From a virus: a DNA stretch of 39,046 nt. The notes below the pieces were generated by a model. The model saw only the letters and a program-made list of their open reading frames with translations. It had not been told where the DNA came from and did no database searches. A program made the position numbers and the translations under genes. Each line of letters opens with the position of its first letter. Positions within the stretch are counted from its first letter, which is position 1. Where the stretch lies: positions 1-39,046 of the IMG/VR virus record IMGVR_UViG_3300021085_000082, one strand, 5' to 3'. Positions 2,630 through 35,832 of the stretch are shown piece after piece.

Positions 2630-3659
2630 TATAGGAAATATATCTGAGCTCACGGGCTCAGCACAGGTTATAAGAGACAAGCCATATCAGGCAAAACAAA
2701 GATTTGATATACAGCAGAATGATGAAGCTATTACTACTAATGGTCGCATGGCTATTACCTTCCTTGATGAGTCTCAGGTAAAGTTAACAGAGAACTCAAC
2801 TCTAACTATAGACGAATATATATTTGACCCCAACCCCAGTAAATCAAAAATGGCTATTACGTTTGGACTTGGTACTGCTAGGTTTATTACTGGCGGATTA
2901 AACAAAATAGACAAGAACAATATAGATCTTAAAACGCCAACAGCTAACATAGCAATTCGCGGTACTGACTTTACGGTTACTGTAGATGAGATAGGCAGAT
3001 CATTATTAATCCTTTTGCCAAATGAACTGGGTGTTGCAAGCGGGGAAATAATAGTCACCACGGCAATAGGTTCAGTAACTCTTAATAAACCATACCAGGC
3101 AACAACAGTTGATGTCTTTGAAAAATCTCCAAGCCCACCAGTGATACTTGACCTAACTCTAGACCTGATAGACAACATGCTAATAGTAACGCCACCAAAG
3201 CAAGAACAAGTAATAGAAGACTCTATTCAGACAAACAAAAAAAGCATTCTAGATTTTGATGACCTGGACATAGATTATCTGGAAGAAGACTTTTTAGATT
3301 CTGATAAAGATCTAGAGTTTACAGAGCTAGATATAAACTATTTAGATGTAAATTTCTTAGAAGACTTATTAGATGTAATAGATGCACTACAAGAAATAAA
3401 GCAGGAAGATCAGCTAGCCCAAGACGCAACATCTATCAATATAGTTGGAACTAAATTTGGTCAAGATCTAAACACACAAATAACCTCTTTTGTAACAGGA
3501 GAGGTGTTGACCATTATGCGTAGCGTAAGCGATACTGCTAGGTTAGATGTAGACTCATCTCAGAGCTATACTATTATCTTTTTACAAGACGGCACTTCTA
3601 ATATTATTAAAGTAAACGGCGGAACAGGTAGCACTATTAAAATCACTCAAACTAATTAA
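2577..3659 (+). CDS. FecR-domain protein with acidic linker and curlin-like C-terminus
   Basis: Residues about 15-170 form a FecR domain (GSAQVIRD, DEAITTNGRMAITFLDES, TLTIDEYIF, TPTANIAIRGTDFTV). A very acidic stretch follows with repeated DYLEEDFL/NYLDVNFL units, then an end with QDGTSNIIKV and GGTGSTIKITQTN that resembles curlin repeats. FecR domains bind or scaffold in the periplasm or on the surface and often pair with CHASE2 cyclases. The start is uncertain: ATG 2577 fits the overlap pattern of the operon, but TTG 2538 would add a better signal peptide (MLLIGYRLTLLVLMALFVSF). The stop codon overlaps the next start. Confidence 0.8.
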   Translation: MALFVSFRTMAEPPQAVDIGNISELTGSAQVIRDKPYQAKQRFDIQQNDEAITTNGRMAITFLDESQVKLTENSTLTIDEYIFDPNPSKSKMAITFGLGTARFITGGLNKIDKNNIDLKTPTANIAIRGTDFTVTVDEIGRSLLILLPNELGVASGEIIVTTAIGSVTLNKPYQATTVDVFEKSPSPPVILDLTLDLIDNMLIVTPPKQEQVIEDSIQTNKKSILDFDDLDIDYLEEDFLDSDKDLEFTELDINYLDVNFLEDLLDVIDALQEIKQEDQLAQDATSINIVGTKFGQDLNTQITSFVTGEVLTIMRSVSDTARLDVDSSQSYTIIFLQDGTSNIIKVNGGTGSTIKITQTN

Positions 3660-5901: not shown

Positions 5902-7569
5902 GTGGCTGGATTTAAACTTACAACATTTAGCGGGATAAACAAAAAGATCTCTCCAAGACTTATACCAGAGGATATGGCTCAGGACGCACAAAATGTTTTT
6001 TTGGATTCAGGAAGAATAGAAGGCTTGCCAATAGATGTCAATGATGCATCAGAGCCAAGCACGCATCCAGCAAGTGATATATCAGGAACAACAAAGACAA
6101 TACACAAAGTAACCGCAAATCAATGGCTTACATTTGATGATGATGTTGACATTATTAACAGCCCTATAAAAGAGGACCAATATGGAAGATTCTACTTTAC
6201 TGGCTATGGTACTTTTCCTAAGTACGGCAATAGCTCTACTTTATTTTCAGGATCTGGTCCCTATCCAACTGCAACATTTAGGCTTGGTCTTCCAAATCCA
6301 GCAGCAATAACAAGCATAGCTGTCGATAATACATCAGCAGATCCAGGTGCTGCAATCAGCTCAAGAGCCTATTTATACACAGAGGTTACAAGTTTTGGAG
6401 AGGAAGGTCCTCCATCCGCAGTCACCTCAAGCGACATTGTTGACGCATCGAACGGCTCAACCGTAACAGTAACCCTTCCCGCAATAACATCAGGCAACTA
6501 CTCAATAGCTAAAAGAAGGATTTATAGAACAGATGTTAATGGTGTGTTTAGGTTTGTTGGAGACACAACAACAACAACAGCACATGCAATTAGCGATACT
6601 GTCCTGGATGATGTTCTCGGGGAAGAAATAGAATCAGCCGACAATCTTGCACCGCCAGATGATGTAACAGCATCACATCCAGACGGACCAATGTTAGGGC
6701 TTACTACTATGCCAAACGGTATTACGTCAGGCTTCTCAGGAAATACTTTACTATTTAGTGAAGCATTTTTACCACACTCATACCCACTTGGTAATCAGTT
6801 AACGACAAAAGACGATATTGTTGCTATAGCATCTATCGCCTCGGGTCTTCTTATAACAACTAAAGGCAAACCATTAATGGCTTCTGGAACAGACCCAAGC
6901 TCTATGGCTATGGTTGAAATAGATGCAAATCTGCCCTGTAGTAATAAAAGATCTTTAGTAGACATGGGAGAGTATGCGATTTACTCTTCTCCAGATGGAT
7001 TGGTGCTAGCATCAAATTCAGGAATACAGCTTATAACTGAACAAATAATGACAAGAGATCAGTGGCAAGACTATTACCCAGAGAATGTGGATGGCTACGA
7101 GTATGAAGGAAAGTATATTGGATTCACATGGGACGGAACAAACTCCTCCACTAAAAGAGGATTTCTATTTGATCCTAGGGGACAGAAGAATGCTTTTGTT
7201 AACTTAGACTTTTATGCAACCGCAGGATATAACGATAGACAAGAAGATGTTTTATATTTGGTAATAAACGGAACTCTTAAAAAATTTGTACAGGGCACAA
7301 CTCCCAGATCTTATCTTTGGAAATCTAAAGAATTTTATACAAACAGACCGCTGTCACCAGGAATAGCAAAAGTTAGTGCAGAGTCGTATAGCTCACTTAC
7401 TTTTAAAATGTATGCTGATGGAAATTTAAAGCATACACAAACCGTAACAAGTGAAAATATATTTAGATTACCTGGAGGATATAAGGCTAAATCTTTTGAG
7501 ATACAATTAGAAGGAACAGACATAGTTAATGAAGTTTGTGTTTATGAGAGTCCACAGGAGATAGTCTAA
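5902..7569 (+). CDS. Tail-associated virion protein
   Basis: The start is GTG. The 555-residue protein is beta-rich, with no membrane segment. The N-terminus (GFKLTTFSGINKKISPRLIPEDMAQDAQNVFLDSGRIEG) is of the kind found in phage proteins encoded beside tail fibres. A central part (about 140-260) looks like a fibronectin-like repeat (SSRAYLYTEVTSFGEEGPPS). It lies 3 nt after the holin-like gene and abuts the tail fibre, so a role in the tail tip or adsorption apparatus is inferred. Confidence 0.65.
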   Translation: MAGFKLTTFSGINKKISPRLIPEDMAQDAQNVFLDSGRIEGLPIDVNDASEPSTHPASDISGTTKTIHKVTANQWLTFDDDVDIINSPIKEDQYGRFYFTGYGTFPKYGNSSTLFSGSGPYPTATFRLGLPNPAAITSIAVDNTSADPGAAISSRAYLYTEVTSFGEEGPPSAVTSSDIVDASNGSTVTVTLPAITSGNYSIAKRRIYRTDVNGVFRFVGDTTTTTAHAISDTVLDDVLGEEIESADNLAPPDDVTASHPDGPMLGLTTMPNGITSGFSGNTLLFSEAFLPHSYPLGNQLTTKDDIVAIASIASGLLITTKGKPLMASGTDPSSMAMVEIDANLPCSNKRSLVDMGEYAIYSSPDGLVLASNSGIQLITEQIMTRDQWQDYYPENVDGYEYEGKYIGFTWDGTNSSTKRGFLFDPRGQKNAFVNLDFYATAGYNDRQEDVLYLVINGTLKKFVQGTTPRSYLWKSKEFYTNRPLSPGIAKVSAESYSSLTFKMYADGNLKHTQTVTSENIFRLPGGYKAKSFEIQLEGTDIVNEVCVYESPQEIV

Positions 7570-15530: not shown

Positions 15531-18500
15531 ATGGAAGATCCAAGACTTGATCCATTTTCGCTTATTCCAGAAGAAGACAAGGACGATTTAGTAAAAGATG
15601 TTCTTAATATAGACCCGCAAACAAGCTTACCAGAAGACACCCAAAAAGATGAATCAACCTTCATTGACACATTTTTAGATCTACCAGGAGCTGGGTTTGG
15701 TCCTTTTTCAATAAGGCAAACAATGCAATCTCCAATTTCTGTTGGAAAGTCATTGGCGGCATCCGTTAGGAAGGCACCATCTGGAGCAAAACTTTTTGCT
15801 AACAATCTCAGTTATCAACTCCAAGAAACAAAAATTAGAAAAGACATGGGTAAAACCCCAGACAGTTCTTCTTTTGGAGTTGGGTTTGGAGAAGGTGCTG
15901 CATCAAGACTTGTAATGTCTCAAGAAAAAAACTTAATAGAAGCAGCCAGAAAAGAAAAAGAAGAGTCATTTAATGGATTGCCGACTGTTGAAAAACAAAA
16001 AATTATAGATGGGTATGTAGAATTTTTAGAAACAAACACCGATCAATACAATCAATTAACCAAAAGAATGTCTGATATAGACAAGTCTATGGGATTAAAG
16101 AAAACAGAAAAGGCTTTGTCTGCTGGTTTTGATAGTTTATTTATGATGACACCAGGTATTTTAGCTACCCTGGGCACAAAAAATCCTGCATTTATGTATG
16201 GGATGATACCAGTGTTTGGTGCTTACGAGTCTTCAGCCTCATATAGACAAGCTCGCATGAGTGGTCTAGATCATGGTGCTGCAATGAGAAACTCTACACT
16301 TAATGCCCTGTCTGAAATGGGAACTGAGTTGGTTCCACTACCATTTGTTTCAAAAACAATGAAAAAATATTGGAAGACAAATGGCAGCACTGTTCAAACT
16401 TTTATCCGTGATGGTTTCACAACAGCCTCTTTAGAATTAATTGGCGAAAATGTTAATACAGTCTTTCAAGAAACAAACAATGCACTCAGCGGGGTGAATA
16501 CTGACTTGGCTTTTGCATATGCAAACAAAGACAATCCAGCTTATGACGGTCCTTCTTGGGTTGATGTTATGCTTGATAATGCTTACATGACATCTATAGC
16601 CACTGTTGTTGGTGCTGGCGGAATGGTTAGCATGCAAGGTTCAGCAGCCTTTGCACCAGACATCAAGAAAGCATTGAACTCTTTAGACCCAAATCTTGCA
16701 AGAAGAATAGCAAGAGAATTAGATATTAATGCAAAACAAGTAAATGCAAATTACAAAGCAATTGATGATACATATAAGTGGCTTGATATTGGCAAAAGAT
16801 TTGATCCAGGTAAATCAATTCTTAGAAAAGAAGGTGGCACATCTACTCCTATAGAGGATAGAACAGCTGAAGAATTTATTGCACCATCAAGAGAATACTA
16901 TAATTTTGTGATGCCAGAAATGTTGGCTGATGAATTTCTTGCTGGACAAATTATTAAAAATAATCCTGTCAACGAACAGCTAACACAAGAAGAAATAGAT
17001 TTAGCTGTAGACTTACAAGCAGAAATTGGTGAGCTTGAGGGTCTTGATTTAAAAACAATTTTAACAGAAGGTAAAAAGGTTTTAAATATTATGGGTTTAA
17101 CAGAGGCTTTGGACCCGCAAACATTTGATGCCGAGATACAGAAAAGAATTAACGAATATGGTTTACAAATAGAGCAAGCTACAGATGAAACAAAGCTACA
17201 GCAGTTAAAGGCTGATCAAAAAACCTTAAAAGACTTTCTAATTAAAAAACAAATGCCACAAAAACCATTGGCACAAAAAACATTTAAGCCAGAATTTGGT
17301 GAAGACATAACCCTGTATGAGGGAGAGGCAGAAAGAAAAGCAAAGATAGGTGCAAACAAAACATTTATAGATCCAAAGATACAAGAGCCATCATCTCCAG
17401 ATGCTGTAAATAATGTAAAACAAAATATAGTTTTAGCCAAAAAATTTGATAAAAATAATATGGCAACATTTACAGACACAGATGAATTTGGTATTAATTT
17501 TAAAGATAAAAAATACACAGACCCTGTTGATGAGTACGGAAGAACATTGCAAGGCGTTGGAGATCTTCCTTCTATTAGAGATTTTAATAATACTGAAGTA
17601 GACGCGGTATCAGAAGCTATTAATAATTTATTTGAAATGGGTCTTCCAAGAAAAGTTTTTGAGGGCATACCTTTTATTGGGGTGCACAGCAATCAGCTTG
17701 ATTTTGAAATGCAAGAAAATACATCGCATGGACAATATTTTCCAAGCCCGTCTAGCAAATATATAACATTGTCGGCATCACAAATACCATCACAATTTGT
17801 AACACAAGAGACTGCCCCAGACTTTGGGTCTTTAAATCAAGATGACTTTAATCTTGGGTCTTTAACCGAGTTGCAGTCTACCTTGGCACATGAAATTGGT
17901 CATCATATAGATTTTGGTTTTGTTGAATTTAAACAATTTTCTGCTGAACAAGAACCTCTTACAGCATCATCACCGCTTTTTGAGCCTATAAATTTTAATT
18001 TTGAATTTGAAAATATTTTAAGAAAAAATAACAAAGAATCAATTTTGGATTTGACTGTTGAAGAACTAAAAAATTATAAATTTGAAACTGGTGGATCGGT
18101 AATGCAAGAGATGTTTAATCTTTATATCAACAATAGAGATTCACAAAGTCCGTATGCTGGACAAATATTTAGTTACCCATTTGATAAATTTTTAATTACT
18201 GCATATAAAGGATTTCCAGTTTTAGATAATGTGATTAGAACTGATAAAGAAGAGAGTACGCATCTTCGCTCTGAAGTATTCGCACAAATGGTGGGAATCA
18301 ATTATACTAACCCTAAACTATTTGATAATTATCAAAATAGTAAAAAGCTTTTACAGGATATAAACAATGTCTTTATTAATAACGAATTATCACAAATTGG
18401 TAGGGGATTACGAAATGCGTTTCAATCATCTCGTTCCGATGCAGATTCTCAAATATACACCAAAAGACTCCCTTATAAAGAGGCTAAAAAAAGCTTTGGA

Positions 18501-21500
18501 TACGAATCAGCCAGTGAAAGAATGGGAGAATCTCCAGTTAAACGAGACAGAGACGACATTCGACCTTCAATACAAGAATCAAACTATGTAGCAATAGGCG
18601 AACTTAAGCCTGATAAAAACAATCTCTATGCTGGTGCACCAAGAACAGGACCAGGACAATTTAAAAACACACAAAAAGACTTTGACAGTCTTGTAAGTGA
18701 TCTTGTCAAAATGGCAGAACAAAAAGACTTATCACTACTTGATGAGAGCAGACACTGGTATCGAAATATAAATCAAGAAATAGATTCCCTTGTTGCTGGA
18801 GATCCAGCTCTTAAAGAAAATGTTTTAAGAATGTTGACAATTTATTCCTCGCAAACACCTGTAGAAACTAACTTAGCTTATACATTAAGATCTTTGGTGT
18901 CTTTAGCTAAGGGTGGAGATCCTCTGCCAGGATTTCAACCGCTTGCTGGTGAGTACGCAAAGAAAGCAATGGAAGCCCAAGATTTTGGTCAAAAATTAAA
19001 CGGGGTAGGTTTTAAGCTACAAAGTTTTTATGAGAATTTAACTGCAAAAAATCCTAATGCTGTAACCATGGATACTTGGATGTTCAAAATGCTTGGGTTT
19101 GAAAAAGGTCAGGGAGCTATAGCAAACCACAGATACGGAACAGCAGTAATACAAAAAGCTACTGAGGCATATAATCAAAAAAATAATGACAATCTTACTC
19201 CAATGGAGATGCAGGCAGTTCTTTGGACATGGGTTAGAAATAAAGAAATGGCGGGTCAGGGTAAGACTGCTGAGTATATTGGTTATGAGACTTATTTAGA
19301 TAAGGCTTCTGCTATTGTTACTGGTGAAGTAATACCAACAGAAAAACTATCAGAGTTTGCTTTTGCAGAAAAATTAAATGCAAGACAAAAAGCAAAGCTA
19401 ACCAGAGAACTTCTAGAGGTAATAACAACATCTGAAGGAAAAAATAAAATCTTAGATGCATTGCCTGGAACGGGTTTATATAAGTTTTCCCACAGCTTTG
19501 GTGCCTATGATGGCAAAGTAAATCCAAACATATTAACAAGTTTAATTTTAGAAAAAGTTCAGGGACAACAACAATTTAGCGAACTAGATCTTTCTTATGC
19601 TGATGACTTCTTGAGAGCCTGGGGCTATGTATTTAGACAAGAAGCCATGCCATATTTTGTTTCTAATGAAAATATATCAGACGCTGATGCTTTTGATGTT
19701 AACAATGAGTCAGTTAATGTTGGGTCATACATTAAATTTATAGACACAAACGTCAACGCACCTTTTGAAATATCTGGAATATTAAGAAAACAACTACAAA
19801 CAGCTTTTGAAAAAGTCGGTATTGATGGGTTTACACAAATGGGTCAAGACTCAATATCTGCTATAAACTTTAAATTTGATGGGAATGTCATTGAAGGTTT
19901 TAACGAAAAAGTAGAACAAGCATTAAGCTCTGTTGGCATAGAGGATGTTGGGTTTGCTGTTGAACACGATATAAAATATAATACGCAGTACCTAACTAAT
20001 AATTGGAACGAGGATACAGATGGAGAAGGTTACATACAAGGACGACTTGAGGAAGGAAGCATACTTAAAGGGCTTGACGGTATCAGGTCAGAAGTTGATG
20101 AAGTCCTCTACAAATACAGAAACGAAATACAATCAGAAGGACCAGACGCAAACTTCCCAAGCACAGGATCAGAACCAGGAGCAGTAGGAAGACCCCTTGC
20201 AAAAAAAATAGTCTTGCCTAAAGATCAATTAGATAAAATTGATGAGGCTATAAATAACACACCACCAACAACACCACCAGCCCCACCAGGTGGAGTAGAC
20301 CCAAATGGAAATTTTACACCTCAAGAAATTGGCACATGGGCTAATTTTGTAGAAGAGATGAATATAAAAGTTGCCAATAAATTTGGCAGGCTTTGGACAA
20401 TAGAAGAAGATATTATTAAACAGTTTGGTGTTAATGGTGTTATTAATAGATTAATAGAGTCTGGAATAGATCCAAATAGTAGGGACTGGAGAGTTACAAC
20501 ACAAACAGATATTTTTTCAGGTCGTGCGAAAGATAAACTTAGAGATATAAGAGAAGATTTTTATATACCAATGTTAGAGTTTTTAACAGAAAAAAATATT
20601 TCTGAAGAAGAGTTTAATCATTTTATTTATAACTTACACGCACCAGAAAGAAATAAATATTTACCAACCCTTTTTGAAGAAAAACTTTTAGAAGCACAAA
20701 TAGAATTAAAAGAGGTTGAGGCAAGTGAAACTTCTAGTAAACAAGATTTAGCAAATGCTAGAAGAAAACTTACTATCATTCAAAAGAAAATGACCAAGGC
20801 TGAAAGAGGATCAGGCATTTATACAGAAGATGCAATTGCAACTCTTAAAAAATACGGCGTTATTTTTGACATGAAAAAAATGAAAGCTAGAGGTTCATTA
20901 ACAAAAGGTAAAAATTTATTAAAGGCATATGAAGATTATTTAAAGCCAATGATTGATAATACCAGGAGAACATATATAGACTCTGGTCTTATTCCTGAAC
21001 AAACTGTATTAGACTGGGACGCAAGATACAATTACTATGTTCCACTCGTTGGCTTTGCAGAAGATACATTGATTGACCCTGAAACGGGGAGAGAGATAGA
21101 AAGACCAAAGTCTACAAACCAACGCATAAACACACAAATGACAGTATCGGGATCTTTGGTTAAAAAGGCTACTGGTAGGGAGTCAGAAGCAAGCTCTCCT
21201 TTACAGCAATCTATAATACAAGCAACTTCTGCTTCAATAGAAGCGGAAAAAAATAGAGTTGTAAAATCATTAGCGGACTTAGCAAGAGCTTTTCCTAGTG
21301 ATCTATGGGAGGTTTCAGAAGATGCTGGTCAGGTTAAAAAAGTTGACGCTACTTGGGATCCTGTAAAGGGTAAGTCAAGAGTAGGTTTCAAAGAAGATGG
21401 GTTGCAAAAATATGTTGAGGTTTATGACAGAAGACTGGCACAAGGATTTGATAACTTTGATTCAACAGTTACCAGTGCTGGAATGAAAGCCATGAGGGCT

Positions 21501-23492
21501 GCAACAAGATATTTGTCAATGGTGAATACGTCTTTAGATCCAACATTTATGATTAATAATTTCATGCGAGATGTTCAAACTGGTTACTTTAATTTAATGG
21601 CTGAAGAACAAATTGAAGGCGGAAGAGCACAGGCATTAGAGATATCTAAAAAATACTATACAACCAAAAACATACTAACAAACGCAATTAATCTAGTAAA
21701 GTTTGAAAAATCAAGATCTCTTAACAAAGAAAATATAAAGATGGAGTTAGATTCTATCGCTAGAGAGGGAGTTGATATTACCCCAGAAGTTATTAAACAG
21801 GTTGAGAAAAAGTACGAACTAACACCAGAGCAAGTTAGAAAACAAATATTAGCAAGAAAATTTAAAGAGTTTGGTGGAGAGACTGGGTACATTGAGCAAA
21901 GAACAATGGATCAGTTAACACAGGAATTTCAAGACTTACAAGATATGTACGCTGGTAAATTTAAAGGAACTGCAAAACAAGGCGTAAAAAATGTCTTAGG
22001 TGTTATTGAGCGTATGAATATTGGTATTGAAAACGCAGCCAGGTTCACAGCTTTTGAGGGTTATGTTGAGTCTATGGGGGGATTTGAAAATGCAACTCCA
22101 GCGGTTTATGAAAAAGCTGCCGCACTTTCTAAAAACTTAACAATAAACTTTAATAGAATGGGAACAATGGGACCAAACATAAACGCTCTTTATATGTTCT
22201 TTAACGCTAGTATTCAAGGATCAGTAAATTTATTTAGGGGTCTTACTCCAAATAACTTTTCATCTAGAAAAGCAAAAGCCGCTGGTGCTCTTGCAATGAC
22301 GGGTGCTGTTAGTGCTTTATATAATATTTTATTTAGCGAAGAAGATGAAGACGGCAGGCTTTATTACGAAAAAATTCCAGACTGGGAGAAGCAAACTAAA
22401 TACATTATTATGTTCCCAGAGGCTCAGTTTGTAGATGGAGAGCTTAAAATAGAAAAGTGGGGAAGCGGGTCCAGATATAAAGTAATTGGAGAAAATGGTA
22501 GAGAGTATCCAATAGGCTTGGGGATCCCAATGCCATATGGTTACGCTATTTTTGCAAACACTGGAAGAGTTACAGTAGAGATGGCAATGGGTAATTTGTT
22601 AGACAACTATGACAAGTCTGTTGCTAAAGCAGGAATAGATCTTGGAGAATCTTTCTTACATAATTTTGCACCGTTATCAGTAGCACTACCAGACAAAAAA
22701 ACTGACAAGCCATTAATAGCCGAGTTATCACCAACATTTTCTCCGTCAGCAATTAGACCTATTGCAGAGCTTATGGTAAACAGAAACTTTTTCGGCAGTA
22801 AAATTTATTATGAGCCAATGTTCAACAGCACTGATCCAAAATCGTATAGAGAAAGTAAAAAAGTTTTAGACTTTATTGAAAAAACTACACAGGCGGTTAA
22901 CGATGCTACTGGGGGCAATGAGTTTTATTCTGGAACTCAAGACTGGGACCCAGCTGTAATACAACATCTTTTAGATGCGGCTGGCGGAGGTGTTTTTAGA
23001 ACTGGTAGAAGGGGGTACAACTTATTATTTAGTTATGACAGACCAACTGACAGACAAACACTTATAAAGAGAAGGTTCATTGCTGGTGTAGACGATGGTG
23101 CTGATTATGAATTTTTTCAAGAAAATTTATCTAAAGTAGAAAGAATTGAAAATGCGTATAGAAAGCTTTCTGAATCATTAGATCCATCAGAAGATCCAGA
23201 ACAATTTTTGGAAAGTCTTGGTTATGACAATAGCAATATCAGGTCCATAAGAGAGGTAGGAAATTTTCTTAATAAAGAGGCTACAAGAATGTATGGTAAT
23301 AACAGCATACTAAGCGGAGTTGAAAAAAACATACAAAATCTTAGAAAACAACAACAAGAAGCAAAAGAGTTATATCAAGAAAATGATCCAGAATACTATC
23401 ATGATGAATATGACAGGATTGAATTAGAAGTTTTAAGTGAAATGAAAAGATTTAATAAAGCTTTTATGCAAGCTTCTAAAAAGCGGGATTAG
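15531..23492 (+). CDS. Giant internal virion polyprotein with zincin motif and LPD-type domains
   Basis: The 2653-residue product is probably carried in the virion and ejected. Seen in order: helical and hydrophobic stretch (about 190-375); HEIGHH metalloprotease motif at about 787-792 with a candidate third zinc ligand in RSEVFAQ about 130 residues on; a domain with YSSQTPVETNL and MDTWMFKMLG (about 1020-1350) seen in large phage polyproteins; a proline-rich linker (about 1575-1595); helical regions; and an LPD38-like segment (about 1985-2270) with SLDPTFMINNFMRDVQ and ALYMFFNASIQGS, followed by a TM. Large polyvalent proteins of this kind combine enzymes acting on host targets. It ends the rightward structural run. 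Confidence 0.8.
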   Translation: MEDPRLDPFSLIPEEDKDDLVKDVLNIDPQTSLPEDTQKDESTFIDTFLDLPGAGFGPFSIRQTMQSPISVGKSLAASVRKAPSGAKLFANNLSYQLQETKIRKDMGKTPDSSSFGVGFGEGAASRLVMSQEKNLIEAARKEKEESFNGLPTVEKQKIIDGYVEFLETNTDQYNQLTKRMSDIDKSMGLKKTEKALSAGFDSLFMMTPGILATLGTKNPAFMYGMIPVFGAYESSASYRQARMSGLDHGAAMRNSTLNALSEMGTELVPLPFVSKTMKKYWKTNGSTVQTFIRDGFTTASLELIGENVNTVFQETNNALSGVNTDLAFAYANKDNPAYDGPSWVDVMLDNAYMTSIATVVGAGGMVSMQGSAAFAPDIKKALNSLDPNLARRIARELDINAKQVNANYKAIDDTYKWLDIGKRFDPGKSILRKEGGTSTPIEDRTAEEFIAPSREYYNFVMPEMLADEFLAGQIIKNNPVNEQLTQEEIDLAVDLQAEIGELEGLDLKTILTEGKKVLNIMGLTEALDPQTFDAEIQKRINEYGLQIEQATDETKLQQLKADQKTLKDFLIKKQMPQKPLAQKTFKPEFGEDITLYEGEAERKAKIGANKTFIDPKIQEPSSPDAVNNVKQNIVLAKKFDKNNMATFTDTDEFGINFKDKKYTDPVDEYGRTLQGVGDLPSIRDFNNTEVDAVSEAINNLFEMGLPRKVFEGIPFIGVHSNQLDFEMQENTSHGQYFPSPSSKYITLSASQIPSQFVTQETAPDFGSLNQDDFNLGSLTELQSTLAHEIGHHIDFGFVEFKQFSAEQEPLTASSPLFEPINFNFEFENILRKNNKESILDLTVEELKNYKFETGGSVMQEMFNLYINNRDSQSPYAGQIFSYPFDKFLITAYKGFPVLDNVIRTDKEESTHLRSEVFAQMVGINYTNPKLFDNYQNSKKLLQDINNVFINNELSQIGRGLRNAFQSSRSDADSQIYTKRLPYKEAKKSFGYESASERMGESPVKRDRDDIRPSIQESNYVAIGELKPDKNNLYAGAPRTGPGQFKNTQKDFDSLVSDLVKMAEQKDLSLLDESRHWYRNINQEIDSLVAGDPALKENVLRMLTIYSSQTPVETNLAYTLRSLVSLAKGGDPLPGFQPLAGEYAKKAMEAQDFGQKLNGVGFKLQSFYENLTAKNPNAVTMDTWMFKMLGFEKGQGAIANHRYGTAVIQKATEAYNQKNNDNLTPMEMQAVLWTWVRNKEMAGQGKTAEYIGYETYLDKASAIVTGEVIPTEKLSEFAFAEKLNARQKAKLTRELLEVITTSEGKNKILDALPGTGLYKFSHSFGAYDGKVNPNILTSLILEKVQGQQQFSELDLSYADDFLRAWGYVFRQEAMPYFVSNENISDADAFDVNNESVNVGSYIKFIDTNVNAPFEISGILRKQLQTAFEKVGIDGFTQMGQDSISAINFKFDGNVIEGFNEKVEQALSSVGIEDVGFAVEHDIKYNTQYLTNNWNEDTDGEGYIQGRLEEGSILKGLDGIRSEVDEVLYKYRNEIQSEGPDANFPSTGSEPGAVGRPLAKKIVLPKDQLDKIDEAINNTPPTTPPAPPGGVDPNGNFTPQEIGTWANFVEEMNIKVANKFGRLWTIEEDIIKQFGVNGVINRLIESGIDPNSRDWRVTTQTDIFSGRAKDKLRDIREDFYIPMLEFLTEKNISEEEFNHFIYNLHAPERNKYLPTLFEEKLLEAQIELKEVEASETSSKQDLANARRKLTIIQKKMTKAERGSGIYTEDAIATLKKYGVIFDMKKMKARGSLTKGKNLLKAYEDYLKPMIDNTRRTYIDSGLIPEQTVLDWDARYNYYVPLVGFAEDTLIDPETGREIERPKSTNQRINTQMTVSGSLVKKATGRESEASSPLQQSIIQATSASIEAEKNRVVKSLADLARAFPSDLWEVSEDAGQVKKVDATWDPVKGKSRVGFKEDGLQKYVEVYDRRLAQGFDNFDSTVTSAGMKAMRAATRYLSMVNTSLDPTFMINNFMRDVQTGYFNLMAEEQIEGGRAQALEISKKYYTTKNILTNAINLVKFEKSRSLNKENIKMELDSIAREGVDITPEVIKQVEKKYELTPEQVRKQILARKFKEFGGETGYIEQRTMDQLTQEFQDLQDMYAGKFKGTAKQGVKNVLGVIERMNIGIENAARFTAFEGYVESMGGFENATPAVYEKAAALSKNLTINFNRMGTMGPNINALYMFFNASIQGSVNLFRGLTPNNFSSRKAKAAGALAMTGAVSALYNILFSEEDEDGRLYYEKIPDWEKQTKYIIMFPEAQFVDGELKIEKWGSGSRYKVIGENGREYPIGLGIPMPYGYAIFANTGRVTVEMAMGNLLDNYDKSVAKAGIDLGESFLHNFAPLSVALPDKKTDKPLIAELSPTFSPSAIRPIAELMVNRNFFGSKIYYEPMFNSTDPKSYRESKKVLDFIEKTTQAVNDATGGNEFYSGTQDWDPAVIQHLLDAAGGGVFRTGRRGYNLLFSYDRPTDRQTLIKRRFIAGVDDGADYEFFQENLSKVERIENAYRKLSESLDPSEDPEQFLESLGYDNSNIRSIREVGNFLNKEATRMYGNNSILSGVEKNIQNLRKQQQEAKELYQENDPEYYHDEYDRIELEVLSEMKRFNKAFMQASKKRD

Positions 23493-23539: not shown

Positions 23540-23565
23540 GGTTTAAGTATCTAAGATACCAAACT
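23540..23565. other. Hairpin at the junction of virion genes and integrase
   Basis: GTATC-TAA-GATAC (23547-23559) is flanked by GGTTT and AAACT, giving a two-part stem that overlaps the integrase stop codon. It lies in the 58-nt gap between converging genes. No T-run follows on either strand, so it is a weak terminator; it may instead be part of an attachment site, which commonly lies beside int. Seven bases of dyad outside the core are only partly paired. Confidence 0.35.
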
Positions 23566-24351
23566 ATTGCTGACCTCACAAGCATCGCTAAGATAGTCCT
23601 TGGAAAGGTGAGCGTATCTATTCACTATATTAAAATCAGACCACCCACCAAGATGCTGTAATGTATGTAAGGGGGTTCCATTTTGCACATGATGAGTAGC
23701 CCAAGTGTGACGTATGTCGTGCCATCTAAATCCTTCTAGGTTTGCTTTCTTTAAAGCGTTATACCATCCAGTGTTAGAGGCTCTGTTAATCTTTCTGCCA
23801 GAATATGTGAAAACATACGGGCTTTCTTTTTTAATTGAATACAGAAGCTCTCTGCATTTCTTGTTAAGCGGGACCGAAAGACCTTTTCCGTTCTTTGTTT
23901 CAGTTCCATCTATAGAAATCTGATCTTTATTTATGTCATCCCATTTAAGATTAAAGCAGTTGGACATCCTCACCCCAGTAAGGAGGGAGAAGACAAAAGG
24001 TTTTTTTAAGTGCAGGGGGAGCACTGTATGTAAAACTTTAATGTCTTCCAGAGTAAAATACTTGGTTCTCTTAGGGAGTTCCTTTACTCTTTTAATCATA
24101 GGCTTGGTGTCCAACCACCCTAACTCTTCGTAGCCATACATGAGCACGGCTCTGAAGTAGTTTAAATATCTATTAACAGTTCCTGGTGATCCGTTTATCC
24201 CAGACCTTGCAATAGCTATTTGTTCTTTAGTAATACTCTTTATGTCCATGTCAGCAAACAAAGGATCAAAATATTTTCTATAGGTAAAATCGTTTTTACC
24301 CATTTTATTGAACCTGTAATATTGCCTAACAGTGTCGTGCCAAGTATTCAT
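23551..24351 (-). CDS. int: Tyrosine recombinase / integrase
   Basis: The 266-residue protein has a compact core-binding domain (about 1-90) and a catalytic domain with the expected residues: Arg in LLTGVRMSN, Lys in ETKNGKGLSVPL, HxxR in WHDIRHTWATHH, the His/Trp position in LGGWSD and the nucleophile Tyr in IVNRYAHLS. It should cut and rejoin attP and attB for lysogeny. It lacks an arm-binding domain, so it is shorter than lambda Int. Its start overlaps the stop of the small gene before it. No CI-type repressor is seen in the window. Confidence 0.93.
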   Translation of the reverse strand: MNTWHDTVRQYYRFNKMGKNDFTYRKYFDPLFADMDIKSITKEQIAIARSGINGSPGTVNRYLNYFRAVLMYGYEELGWLDTKPMIKRVKELPKRTKYFTLEDIKVLHTVLPLHLKKPFVFSLLTGVRMSNCFNLKWDDINKDQISIDGTETKNGKGLSVPLNKKCRELLYSIKKESPYVFTYSGRKINRASNTGWYNALKKANLEGFRWHDIRHTWATHHVQNGTPLHTLQHLGGWSDFNIVNRYAHLSKDYLSDACEVSNSLVS

Positions 24352-32625: not shown

Positions 32626-32653
32626 CAAAAAAAAGCGAGGTAATTACCCCGCT
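32626..32653 (-). terminator. Intrinsic terminator of the leftward early operon
   Basis: The stem AGCG-A-GGTAATTACC-C-CGCT (32634-32653, one A/C mismatch) is followed on the minus strand by a run of eight T. It lies 16 nt past the stop of the zinc-ribbon gene. The other side is less T-rich, so it works best on leftward transcripts. Confidence 0.85.
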
Positions 32654-32668
32654 TCTCTTTTAATTTGT

Positions 32669-32815
32669 TTACTTTTTCTTTTTATATTCCTCCTCGTATG
32701 TAGTAAACCTTCTTTTACATTCCAGACATTCTCGTCTGCGTTTGTTGACTGATCCGTCAACGTACTTGCGTACATCTACAACTCTGGAGTTGCCGCCACA
32801 TTCTGAACAAGTCAT
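32669..32815 (-). CDS. NrdR-like zinc-ribbon microprotein (48 aa)
   Basis: A GGAGGTAGCGTAATG start opens a 48-residue frame: [20 protein letters not shown], then [18 protein letters not shown]. This is the zinc ribbon of the ribonucleotide reductase repressor NrdR (C-x2-C, SRVxD, RRRREC-x2-C-x2-RFTTYE), with Cys at 3, 6, 30 and 33. The ATP-cone that normally makes up the remaining 100 residues is missing. It could bind NrdR boxes and interfere with host nrd regulation, or be a general DNA binder. It is the last gene of the operon, coupled by 1 nt. Confidence 0.82.
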
Positions 32816-33312
32816 TACGCTACCTCCTCTGGTCTATATTCCCAGACACTTAAGTCACCAACAAGATCGCTAGTAACAACATCAAGCAAGGCTTTGGACA
32901 GCCAGTAGGCATCAGACTTTACCCAGTCCTCATGCTCGCAGGACTGATACATATAGCACTTGATCATGCCGTAAAGGTCTTTGGTACTTACCTTGGGGTA
33001 GCCACTGGTTCTTGATTGACATTGATTGATGTAAAGCAGAACCATGCTTTCATCAAACTCATTGTCTTTGCCTTCAGGGTTCCATGTAAAGAAACTCTTC
33101 CAGTTATCAGGATACCTAGCCTGTAGGCTTGTAACATTAGCCCTTGCAAGTATCTCAACCGCCTCCTGCGGGGAAGAAAAAGAAATCCTCTCCCTCGTTA
33201 CTAAGTTATAGGCATGACTAACAATCTTATCACTAGACATAGGGACGCTACCGTTCCCAAAGAACTTACCCATCTCACCCATATGATCTGCATTACATAA
33301 ATACGCACTCAT
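32815..33312 (-). CDS. Hypothetical early protein (165 aa)
   Basis: ATG 33312 is chosen over 33348 because GGAGGTGAAATA precedes it and it overlaps the upstream stop. The product begins [18 protein letters not shown] and has a C-terminal helical half with several Cys and Trp ([36 protein letters not shown]). Similar YLCN-starting proteins occur in phage early regions; no role is known. Confidence 0.7.
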
Positions 33313-33605
33313 TATTTCACCTCCTTGTTTGTAAATAATCTTATCCAATTACTGCCGTCTGTCTCTCTATATCCATTATTTGTTATGTAAGTAGGATATA
33401 TCGCACAATACATAGTTCCTTTTCTATAGTTTCCTGTGTCTGCTCCTGTTTCATCATGGCACTCAACATCAAAAAACTTTCCGCCTACTTCTATTTCAAC
33501 CCAATCTGATTCACATCCTTGTTTGTCTTTACAAAATTTGTTAAATATTTCAGAAGCTTTGCTTTTAGCTGTTTCAAGTTCTTGTTTAGTTATCCAATTA
33601 GTCAT
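33312..33605 (-). CDS. Hypothetical early protein (97 aa)
   Basis: The strong site GGAGGTGAAATAATG precedes it. The 97-residue product has an N-terminal helix (KQELETAKSKASEIFNKFC) and a beta-rich end (WVEIEVGGKFFDVECHD). Stop and start overlap both neighbours by 1 nt. Confidence 0.68.
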   Translation of the reverse strand: MTNWITKQELETAKSKASEIFNKFCKDKQGCESDWVEIEVGGKFFDVECHDETGADTGNYRKGTMYCAIYPTYITNNGYRETDGSNWIRLFTNKEVK

Positions 33606-33841
33606 TATTTCACCTCCATTTGTTTGTGTTCTTTGGCAATAGCATCTGCTCTACCCATTAAAAATAATTCATAAACCTTTTCTCTGTCTAGGCTGTCTCC
33701 ACCGCTCCATAGATTAGGAAAATTTGTTTTATACATTTTTAAATACTTGCACGCCTCTAAGGGTGCTATGTCATCTCCACTATCACGATAAAAATCTAGA
33801 AAGTAAGAAACAAATTTAGAGTTCTGATTATTTAGGCTCAT
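33605..33841 (-). CDS. Hypothetical early protein (78 aa)
   Basis: GGAGGTGAATAATG marks the start. The helical 78-residue product includes SKFVSYFLDFYRDSGD and EKVYELFLMGRADAIAKEH. It overlaps the preceding gene by 14 nt. No family is recognised. Confidence 0.65.
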   Translation of the reverse strand: MSLNNQNSKFVSYFLDFYRDSGDDIAPLEACKYLKMYKTNFPNLWSGGDSLDREKVYELFLMGRADAIAKEHKQMEVK

Positions 33842-34028
33842 TATTCACCTCCTCTATTGAAATTACGGTTTCTACTGGCTCTTCATTTGCACCATTCATC
33901 CATGCAAACATTAAAGCTTTTTTAGCCTCTTCGTGTGTTTTTTCATGTACTTCTATTTTGTAGGTCTTTGTGACCACAACTTCAAAGTCGTATCTTTTAT
34001 AATCTTTCATTGCTTCTTTTAAGTTCAT
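33828..34028 (-). CDS. Hypothetical early protein (66 aa)
   Basis: AAGGAGGTGAATAATG precedes it. The 66-residue product shows a strand-helix-strand form (YDFEVVVTKTYKIEVHEKTHEEAKKALMF ... VETVISIEEV), like small phage proteins with a DUF-type ferredoxin-like half. It is coupled to both neighbours. Confidence 0.65.
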   Translation of the reverse strand: MNLKEAMKDYKRYDFEVVVTKTYKIEVHEKTHEEAKKALMFAWMNGANEEPVETVISIEEVNNEPK

Positions 34029-34210
34029 TATTCACCTCCTTGTGTTATTAAACCTTGTTCTATTAAACCCATTGCAGTTCTACCAAACCAGCCCTGAAGT
34101 TGCCAAGCCAGACCAGTGTCAACTAAATGTTGCCATGCCTCCCTGACTTGATCCTCATGATCAGCTGGAATGAATCCCTCTGCAATACCTACAGCTGTGT
34201 AGTTATCCAT
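34028..34210 (-). CDS. Small early protein, DNYTAVGIAEGFI family (60 aa)
   Basis: The product has an N-terminal AVGIAEGFIPADHEDQVREAWQHLVDTGLAWQLQGWFGR stretch. The pattern A-E-G-F/x..A-W-Q-x-L-x-x-T-G-x-x-W-x-L-Q-G-x-x-G-R is common to tiny proteins in many phage early regions. GGAGGGCAATCATAATG precedes it. Function unknown. Confidence 0.72.
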   Translation of the reverse strand: MDNYTAVGIAEGFIPADHEDQVREAWQHLVDTGLAWQLQGWFGRTAMGLIEQGLITQGGE

Positions 34211-34422
34211 TATGATTGCCCTCCATTTTTTCTTTGTTCAAATAAATACGTTCTGTACTTTTGCCTAACAACGCCCTCAAAATCTCCGTCAGGATCAATT
34301 GCATACTGGCTCATGTGATCATATAGATTCTCTAAAGCATCCCAAGTAGTAACTTTTGCATCTACTAAGATTTGCTCCATGTCTTCTATTGATCTTTTCA
34401 TTTTCATTTCTATTGTTGTCAT
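34210..34422 (-). CDS. Hypothetical early protein downstream of ribozyme A (70 aa)
   Basis: Its start lies 27 nt after the predicted cleavage site of the ribozyme at 34444-34510, with AGGAGGG in that leader. The 70-residue helical product begins MTTIEMKMKRSIEDMEQILVD. After cleavage it would head a message covering the genes down to the zinc ribbon at 32669. Confidence 0.68.
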   Translation of the reverse strand: MTTIEMKMKRSIEDMEQILVDAKVTTWDALENLYDHMSQYAIDPDGDFEGVVRQKYRTYLFEQRKNGGQS

Positions 34423-34443: not shown

Positions 34444-34510
34444 GACTAAGACCTCCTCGATTCGCGGGGAAAAGAGAAGGTTTCGACCAATCAGGTCTCA
34501 TCAGTTAGCC
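34444..34510 (-). ncRNA. Type I hammerhead ribozyme A
   Basis: Read on the minus strand: stem I 5' side GGCUAA, core CUGAUGA, stem II GACC-UGAUU-GGUC, core GAAA, stem III CCUUCUC/GAGGAGG (7 bp, one G-U) closed by a 15-nt loop, cleavage triplet GUC, stem I 3' side UUAGUC. Every invariant core base is present, including G10.1-C11.1 and A15.1-U16.1. Cleavage is expected between 34450 and 34449. The upstream gene stops with TAG at the first base of stem I, and the next start is 27 nt after the cut. Confidence 0.95.
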
Positions 34511-34893
34511 TATGAGTGATAGTACATATCCCAGCTACGAACTATGTCATATATGTTGTACTCAGAACCATTCTTGATAGCCTCAGCAAGATCATTGAAG
34601 ACCGCTGATCTGTACTCATATCTGTCAGGCTTGTTAATGGTGTAGCCCTTGTCCATGAAGTAAGCAAAGGATTGGACCAGTCCATGATCCTTGGACTGCT
34701 CTTTAGTGATCCATCTAACCATGTCTTCTGCTTGATCATGGAATGATCTTTTGAGCTCAACATAATTCAAGAAGTTTGTGTGCTCACGTTGAATAAGCTC
34801 ATCTTTCTCACACTTGCCCATGATCTCAGTAGCAATAACCATTTCTTGTTCCCAAGTTATTTGAGCATCAGTTTTAGTATTTAGTTTTGTCAT
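34510..34893 (-). CDS. Hypothetical early protein between ribozymes B and A (127 aa)
   Basis: The 127-residue soluble product (start MTKLNTKTDAQITWEQEMV) is charged and helical, with an aromatic end (DIVRSWDMYYHS). GGGAGGTAAAT precedes the ATG. It is bounded on both sides by hammerhead ribozymes, so cleavage of both would free it as a single-gene message. No family is recognised. Confidence 0.7.
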   Translation of the reverse strand: MTKLNTKTDAQITWEQEMVIATEIMGKCEKDELIQREHTNFLNYVELKRSFHDQAEDMVRWITKEQSKDHGLVQSFAYFMDKGYTINKPDRYEYRSAVFNDLAEAIKNGSEYNIYDIVRSWDMYYHS

Positions 34894-34916
34894 ATTTACC
34901 TCCCAGTAATTGTTTT

Positions 34917-34968
34917 GACTAAGACTCCCCGTAGGGAGTTTCGCTCATTGAGAGCTCATCAGTTAGCC
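34917..34968 (-). ncRNA. Type I hammerhead ribozyme B
   Basis: On the minus strand: stem I GGCUAA, CUGAUGA, stem II GCUC-UCAAU-GAGC, GAAA, stem III CUCCC/GGGAG with a UACG loop of the stable UNCG class, GUC, then UUAGUC. The core is complete. Stems II and III differ in sequence from copies A and C while pairing is kept, which is compensatory change. Cleavage is expected between 34923 and 34922. The stop codon TAA of the upstream gene lies inside stem I. Confidence 0.96.
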
Positions 34969-35382
34969 TGCTTTGCGTATCACCTCCTCTTGTAACACTC
35001 TTGGGTTATTAAACTTCTTGAAGCCATAACTGTCGCAGAAATAAAAGTTACCCAGATCATCTTCAACAATGTCACCAACGCTCAAGCTGTGAAAGTTTGT
35101 ATGCTTGACGATTGATGATGCTGTATCAAGTGCATAATCAGAACCAGAGTTAAGAGCAACAAAAACATCTTCAGGATTGTTTCCCTCGATCTTTACATCA
35201 CAAACATGCGTGTAATGTTTGAAGTAGGAATCACTCCAATCTTTAAAACCCATCATTGTTTCTAATTTTGCTTTGTACTCAGGGTACTTCTCACCAGCAG
35301 AAGTATGGCTCTCACCATCTGTATTAACAAAGTCATAGACCTCATTGCTTACTGTTATTTGATATACGTTAAATGTTGTCAT
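34963..35382 (-). CDS. Hypothetical early protein between ribozymes C and B (139 aa)
   Basis: The 139-residue product begins MTTFNVYQITVSNEVYDFVN and has a beta-rich C-terminus with FHSLSVGDIVEDDLGNFYFCDSYGFKKF, a form seen in small phage early proteins (S-V-G-D-V-I-x-x-x-x-G). AAGGAGGCAATT precedes the ATG. Its last codon pair is GGC TAA, where TAA is also part of stem I of ribozyme B. Confidence 0.72.
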   Translation of the reverse strand: MTTFNVYQITVSNEVYDFVNTDGESHTSAGEKYPEYKAKLETMMGFKDWSDSYFKHYTHVCDVKIEGNNPEDVFVALNSGSDYALDTASSIVKHTNFHSLSVGDIVEDDLGNFYFCDSYGFKKFNNPRVLQEEVIRKAG

Positions 35383-35406
35383 AATTGCCTCCTTGGCTGT
35401 TTGTTT

Positions 35407-35456
35407 GACTAAGACGCCTCACGGCGTTTCGACCAATCAGGTCTCATCAGTTAGTC
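35407..35456 (-). ncRNA. Type I hammerhead ribozyme C
   Basis: On the minus strand: stem I GACUAA (6 perfect pairs with UUAGUC), CUGAUGA, stem II GACC-UGAUU-GGUC, GAAA, stem III CGCC/GGCG closed by a GUGA tetraloop of the GNRA class, GUC. All conserved nucleotides are present. Cleavage is expected between 35413 and 35412. TAA of the upstream gene (35453-35451) lies in stem I; the downstream start codon at 35382 is 30 nt after the cut with a strong ribosome site. Confidence 0.96.
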
Positions 35457-35762
35457 TTGAACCACTTGGTTTAAATGAAAATTCATGTTTTCTTGGTATT
35501 TTGTAAAACCACTAGAAGCTATTTCTTGTGATTGGATTAACCAAGCAGAAAATACTTCTTGCGGGCTTAGTGCAACCCAGCGAGTGTTATCAATGTACTC
35601 AAATACAGCCTCAAGAATTCCAACATATGTTGCATCGCTTGCAGGTTTACTTTTGTATGCCCATACATACATAAGGATAATGCTTGAAAGTGTTGGCTTT
35701 TCTGCATGCTTCATAGCGTTAGCTAGTATTTCGTTATTAGTTGTCTGTCTTAATGTTGTCAT
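35451..35762 (-). CDS. First gene of the ribozyme-bearing early operon (103 aa)
   Basis: ATG 35762 is preferred to 35795 because GGAGGGCAAT precedes it and the product then starts MTTLRQTT like its neighbours. The 103-residue protein is helical (TLSSIILMYVWAYKSKPAS, YVGILEAVFEYIDNTRWVALSPQEVFSAWL). No family is recognised. It follows a strong promoter and ends in ribozyme C. Confidence 0.7.
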   Translation of the reverse strand: MTTLRQTTNNEILANAMKHAEKPTLSSIILMYVWAYKSKPASDATYVGILEAVFEYIDNTRWVALSPQEVFSAWLIQSQEIASSGFTKYQENMNFHLNQVVQD

Positions 35763-35802
35763 ATTGCCCTCCTTTGGGTGTTTGTTTGTAAACATTGATT
35801 AC

Positions 35803-35832
35803 ATATTAATGCCATACGATATGTAGTGTCAA
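35803..35832 (-). promoter_or_regulatory. Sigma70-type promoter of the leftward early operon
   Basis: On the minus strand a perfect TTGACA (35832-35827) is followed after 18 nt by TAATAT (35808-35803). Transcription would start near 35796 and run through 35762-32669 to the terminator at 32626. The leader carries ACAAACAAAC and AGGAGGG. Confidence 0.8.

Follow-up and report, generated by a model that had tools for sequence, protein, structure and literature searches.

Three type I hammerhead ribozymes at successive gene junctions of a temperate phage operon, with predicted roles in transcript cutting and as joints of gene cassettes

Three complete type I hammerhead ribozymes, as judged by core and fold and predicted to self-cleave, lie on the minus strand at three successive gene junctions of one phage operon. 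They are contained in a 39,046-nt stretch of viral DNA (IMG/VR record IMGVR_UViG_3300021085_000082), hereafter called the window. We consider it probable (roughly 0.8) that these elements are active ribozymes cutting the operon RNA, and that in the DNA each ribozyme and the leader following it act as a joint at which gene cassettes recombine. Structure, placement, covariation, the coupling of loop II to the flanks of stem I and the location of breakpoints at the ribozymes are established at the level of sequence. The operon comprises the following features:

35803-35832, minus strand: promoter-like site TTGACA-18-TAATAT, predicted start of the operon transcript (consensus match only)
35451-35762, minus strand: gene 1, 103 aa, family W (no PHROG, Pfam or PADLOC match)
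35407-35456, minus strand: hammerhead ribozyme 1 (type I), predicted cut between 35413 and 35412 (model R1, 71.3 bits, E 2.9e-15)
34963-35382, minus strand: gene 2, 139 aa, family I (weak YodL-like match PF14191, 24.2 bits, cut-off 24)
34917-34968, minus strand: hammerhead ribozyme 2 (type I), predicted cut between 34923 and 34922 (model R1, 70.6 bits, E 4.3e-15)
34510-34893, minus strand: gene 3, 127 aa, family A
34444-34510, minus strand: hammerhead ribozyme 3 (type I, long stem III), predicted cut between 34450 and 34449 (model R1, 59.2 bits, E 2.8e-12)
32815-34422, minus strand: distal block of six small genes with overlapping stop and start codons, without ribozymes
32627-32660, minus strand: intrinsic-terminator-like hairpin followed by a T run, predicted end of the operon transcript (consensus match only)

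All three elements carry the catalytic core of type I hammerheads (CUGAUGA, GAAA and U16.1-C17) and read, 5' to 3' on the minus strand, as stem I, CUGAUGA, stem II, GAAA, stem III, C and UUAGUC. The 5' strand of stem I is GACUAA in element 1 and GGCUAA in elements 2 and 3, each facing the partner UUAGUC. In each element the helices are 6, 4 and at least 5 bp long. Stem I is open, loops close stems II and III, and the minimum free energy structure of each isolated element RNA was exactly the hammerhead fold (3/3). Since Rfam at gathering cut-offs found none of the three elements in the window, we built a covariance model of our own, R1, trained on 40 diverse elements from other viral contigs and phages, with the window and near-identical copies left out. 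Searching the window with R1 returned exactly three matches, which were the three elements. An earlier note on this DNA had proposed three complete minus-strand type I hammerheads with core and three helices, a claim borne out by the independent model, the cores and the folds.

Scoring with the Rfam Hammerhead type I model, which the same note had suggested as a check, formally failed. Under permissive settings element 1 gave the best Hammerhead_1 score of the three, 27.1 bits against a gathering cut-off of 34, element 2 scored best with HH9 (17.3 bits), and element 3 reached 23.1 bits with RAGATH-1 and 15.3 bits with Hammerhead_1. The window elements share core, helix order and open stem I with Hammerhead_1 (RF00163) but stay under its cut-off, element 2 being nearer to HH9; we therefore file them as type I hammerheads by core and fold and not under RF00163. 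The letters near the core and stem I also resemble those of RAGATH-1-hammerhead (RF03152), whereas an extra upstream hairpin is a feature of RAGATH-1, and the scores of 24.5 and 23.1 bits were far under the cut-off of 56.3. In eight relative loci Rfam reported 2 elements and R1 found 20, so that the Rfam hammerhead cut-offs overlook most elements of the window type. HDV-like theta ribozymes of gut phages are likewise small self-cleaving ribozymes of phage transcripts with a proposed processing role, but they have another fold and lie at tRNA 3' ends, whereas the window hammerheads lie at joints of protein genes (PMC10879173).

The three ribozymes occupy successive junctions between one promoter-like and one terminator-like site, in a phage with integrase and packaging genes. 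The promoter-like site at 35832-35803 is the only such minus-strand match upstream of gene 1, and a scan of the window found no minus-strand terminator-like site between 36400 and 32660. This one-operon anatomy agrees with the proposal of the earlier note that the transcript cuts itself, as do the predicted messages for the genes at 35762, 35382 and 34893 and the block from 34422; the cleavage itself is a prediction. The terminator scan also bears on the idea that the hairpins serve in intrinsic termination or RNase III cleavage. Their stem III hairpins are GC-rich and stand at gene ends, as this idea would have it, but they are not followed by a U run, and the catalytic core plays no part in either process. 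We regard this explanation as exceedingly improbable, and its terminator version is ruled out by the scan.

The elements had further been described as lying exactly between genes. The succession of junctions holds, but strict separation does not: the TAA stops of gene 1 (35453-35451) and gene 2 (34965-34963) form the 3' half of the 5' strand of stem I in ribozymes 1 and 2, respectively, and the final base of the gene 3 stop TAG (34512-34510) is also part of stem I in ribozyme 3. As the six distal genes overlap by their stop and start codons, ribozymes and translational coupling split the operon into two parts. The leaders from predicted cut to next gene measure 30, 29 and 27 nt for ribozymes 1, 2 and 3, and cutting would act as if to give every gene one kind of leader. 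The leader of the promoter-proximal gene at 35790-35771 (ACAAACAAACACCCAAAGGAGG) is similar to those released by the ribozymes (CAAACAAACAGCCAAGGAGG). Searches of PHROGs, Pfam and PADLOC gave nothing firm on the functions of the cassette genes. The phage is temperate, as indicated by an integrase at 23551-24351, and further encodes RecE-like and ERF recombination proteins, a DnaB-like helicase and a small terminase subunit; its structural region includes a 2653-aa open reading frame (15531-23492).

More than 200 hammerhead elements of the window type were found in about 100 viral contigs, with up to 14 elements per record (G008, G009) among the matches listed. The DNA search pattern TAACTGATGAGNNCN{3,12}GNNCGAAAC, which covers only the 5' half of the motif and is silent on stem III and the 3' strand of stem I, matched at least 120 stretches of viral contigs and 13 stretches of prokaryotes, with 84,980 genomes searched. 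Both stem III and the 3' strand of stem I were completed in 129 of the 136 non-redundant viral matches listed, compared to 5 of 3020 when the 3' sequence was shuffled. This count serves as the unbiased test because the rows of the alignment had been pre-selected for stems. In that alignment standard pairs filled 99% of the pair cells, against 29-39% in slid versions, and 12 of 15 base pairs showed changes on both strands. Run over 1.07 Mb of loci, a structural finder detected 270 elements, whereas the reversed sequence gave 0. Together with the independent R1 matches, the shuffling test and the reversed-sequence scan rule out a chance origin of the elements. Many of the relative contigs are fragments.

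Stem I is exactly 6 bp long in 119 of 135 elements among the matches listed, and loop II is strictly associated with the bases beside it. In all 154 distinct elements listed with a UNNNU loop II, an A stands directly 5' and another directly 3' of the 6-bp stem I, and all 12 elements with a GNRA loop II among the matches listed carry U-A on the 3' side. Counted per contig, again among the matches listed, the rule held in 88/88 versus 7/7 (Fisher p = 9e-11), and in five contigs carrying both loop II classes each class kept its own flank rule. So strict an association fits loop II touching the bases on either side of the open stem I, a contact that we infer from sequence comparison. Fast cutting of natural hammerheads at low Mg2+ requires such tertiary contacts (PMC3088659, PMC6155905). 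The GNRA elements with U-A after stem I form a second architecture beside the UNNNU class in the same phages (L098, L099, L116, L062, L071).

Upstream stop and downstream start codons bracket 204 of the 223 elements with full context among the matches listed, and the median distance from cut to ATG among these matches is 26 nt. Measured from C3, stop codons start between -16 and +1 in 179 of the 204 two-sided junctions, and between -8 and +1 in 124. These stop-codon counts are biased since the search pattern demanded a TAA before the core, yet -3 was also where a TAA most often stood (24) in the 103 elements that the pattern does not match. The comparison of relatives reveals a fixed design: stem I is open and 6 bp long, and the stop codon of the upstream gene falls inside it or immediately ahead of it. 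Because of this position a terminating ribosome would cover the ribozyme. The same placement could indicate that the ribozyme is a sensor that cuts only if the upstream gene is poorly translated, and does not cut constitutively. We consider such gating by translation possible but rather unlikely: compact packing of genes could explain the placement of the stops, the statistic is partly due to the search pattern, and the response of cleavage to translation is putative.

In the reading that we prefer, cutting of the operon transcript at each ribozyme, the RNA would start near 35796 and run through the genes to the terminator at 32627. Each ribozyme, once transcribed and free of ribosomes, would cut after C17. 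The products would be three RNAs of one gene each, about 384, 490 and 473 nt long, plus a fragment of about 1.8 kb carrying the six translationally coupled distal genes. By the type I layout the upstream message would keep the whole ribozyme at its 3' end, folded into two hairpins with a 2',3'-cyclic phosphate terminus, and the downstream message would begin with a 5'-OH followed by a leader of 27-30 nt that contains a ribosome-binding site. The 6-bp open stem I would presumably let the downstream RNA depart after the cut. RNA ends of this kind would be protected from 5'-end-dependent decay and from 3' exonucleases. The likely effect would be to uncouple expression and, through altered stability, decay of genes that are gained and lost independently. 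The nearest-neighbour ensemble counts against active ribozymes: with 60 nt of flank on each side, stem I probability was 0.38, 0.02 and 0.01 for elements 1, 2 and 3, and such low values are typical of the relatives (55% below 0.1 with flanks), as computed with a nested-fold energy model that omits tertiary contacts and co-transcriptional folding.

The predicted products could also have another fate. In an excised RNA the 5' UUAGUC could pair with the RNA's own 3' stem I strand, and the 5'-OH and 2',3'-cyclic phosphate ends could then be religated by the ribozyme or by a host RtcB ligase to give a circular single-gene RNA. The 3' strand UUAGUC common to all three window elements is in line with this, and stem I strands are fully cross-compatible in 65 of 129 successive pairs within contigs, compared to 16% between contigs. 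However, half of the successive pairs are incompatible, which leaves obligate circularisation unsupported, and duplication or recombination would also yield shared strands. Moreover, Perreault et al. sought spliced or circular products and found none (PMC3088659). We therefore judge circularisation to be improbable.

The gene orders of relatives differ exactly at the ribozymes, which implies that these are also the joints of a cassette array. With W, I and A denoting the families of genes 1, 2 and 3 and HH a hammerhead, the order is W-HH-I-HH-A-HH-V in the window, I-HH-A-HH-L-HH-D in L145, c-HH-L-HH-A-HH-D in L142 (the third ribozyme detected by the model only), b-HH-A-HH-D in L140 and L147, and I-HH-L-HH-D in L156. 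Between L145 and L156, gene A was gained or lost exactly, with a single hybrid ribozyme remaining at the joint. When copies of gene A with unlike upstream genes were paired, identity 5' of the ribozyme was at random level (0-50% per 10-nt bin) and jumped at stem I; in most cases core and stem II agreed at 92-100% of positions (75-79% for L146), and the beginning of gene A at 82-98%. Homologues of gene 3 in L149 and L150, at 48-50% identity, have no ribozyme nearby, so that the ribozyme is not needed for this gene. The hammerhead after gene A in L142/L143 (around 3381-3454) carries one additional base where the core meets stem II (CTGATGATGACC) and may be a decaying or slower natural variant.

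These breakpoints would equally be expected if the elements were mere DNA linkers for homologous recombination of cassettes, the RNA fold having no role, since the ribozyme is where homology between relatives begins and is also the exact site of a cassette gain or loss. A linker would keep its sequence, however, whereas here the helices change on both strands while the core and the loop II-flank rule stay fixed. Covariation of the helices rules out a pure DNA linker, and we regard any such explanation as very improbable. Returning to the preferred combination of RNA cutting and DNA joints, we tentatively propose, at somewhat less than even odds, that the window elements belong to a distinct and widespread phage subfamily of hammerheads with open stem I and a dual use, freeing genes in RNA and joining single-gene cassettes in DNA. 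If so, a cassette inserted at a joint would automatically become its own message with a standard leader, and the accessory region of the phage would be a plug-in array held together by ribozymes.

The view in the earlier note that a serial intercistronic arrangement could not be named from known phages does not hold, as clusters of phage and prophage hammerheads flanking single genes, with proposed processing into single-gene mRNAs, were published in 2011 (Perreault et al., PMC3088659) and reviewed in 2017 (PMC6155905). The examples include the A. tumefaciens ardA triple, C. scindens, A. caulinodans and phages PaP3 and Bcep176; clustered phage hammerheads cleaved in vitro, and one triple arrangement (A. 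tumefaciens) also in E. coli (PMC3088659). The review describes the clustered pattern again and regards the role of hammerheads in bacteria and phages as open (PMC6155905). As in the window, several hammerheads flank single genes of one phage operon in these clusters, the genes vary in identity, and the same cutting is proposed. In contrast, all window-type elements belong to type I, have the upstream stop within or next to their 6-bp open stem I, and coincide with breakpoints of gene exchange; some of the published elements may belong to the same group. The loop II-flank rule, the stop codon in stem I and the use as cassette joints were not found in the published main texts, and may have been noticed earlier elsewhere. 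With hundreds of elements of one fixed anatomy, the window-type hammerheads make the question of role concrete and testable. The evolutionary pattern suggests why phages keep these ribozymes: transient genes could share one promoter without mutual dependence.

No DNA relatives of the operon were found among annotated phages, and BLAST of single elements gave convincing matches only in the Flavobacterium elemo phages; similar-looking matches in Caulobacter Colossusvirus and Prevotella Lak phages were not confirmed by R1. The cultured phages elemoA and elemoC show very few differences over about 210 nt, four of which are two compensatory pair changes in stem II (GACU/AGUC to GGUU/AACC). Cultured Flavobacterium phages (MT497017 and relatives) carry one element. 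The putative tertiary rule predicts which mutants should fail. The hammerhead of the elemo phages (L124, MT497017.1, region 5938-6063) is overlapped by an annotated antisense 'hypothetical protein' CDS (5968-6075), and an unannotated 21-codon ORF in MT497017.1 ends with a TAG at its stem I. The 5.8-kb contig L129 (1-5798), binned as Aliivibrio and probably a phage or prophage fragment, has nine R1 matches (eight strong), nearly one per gene. Hammerheads with long extra hairpins in stem III occur in L100 (7032-8736, coordinates of the reverse-complement strand).
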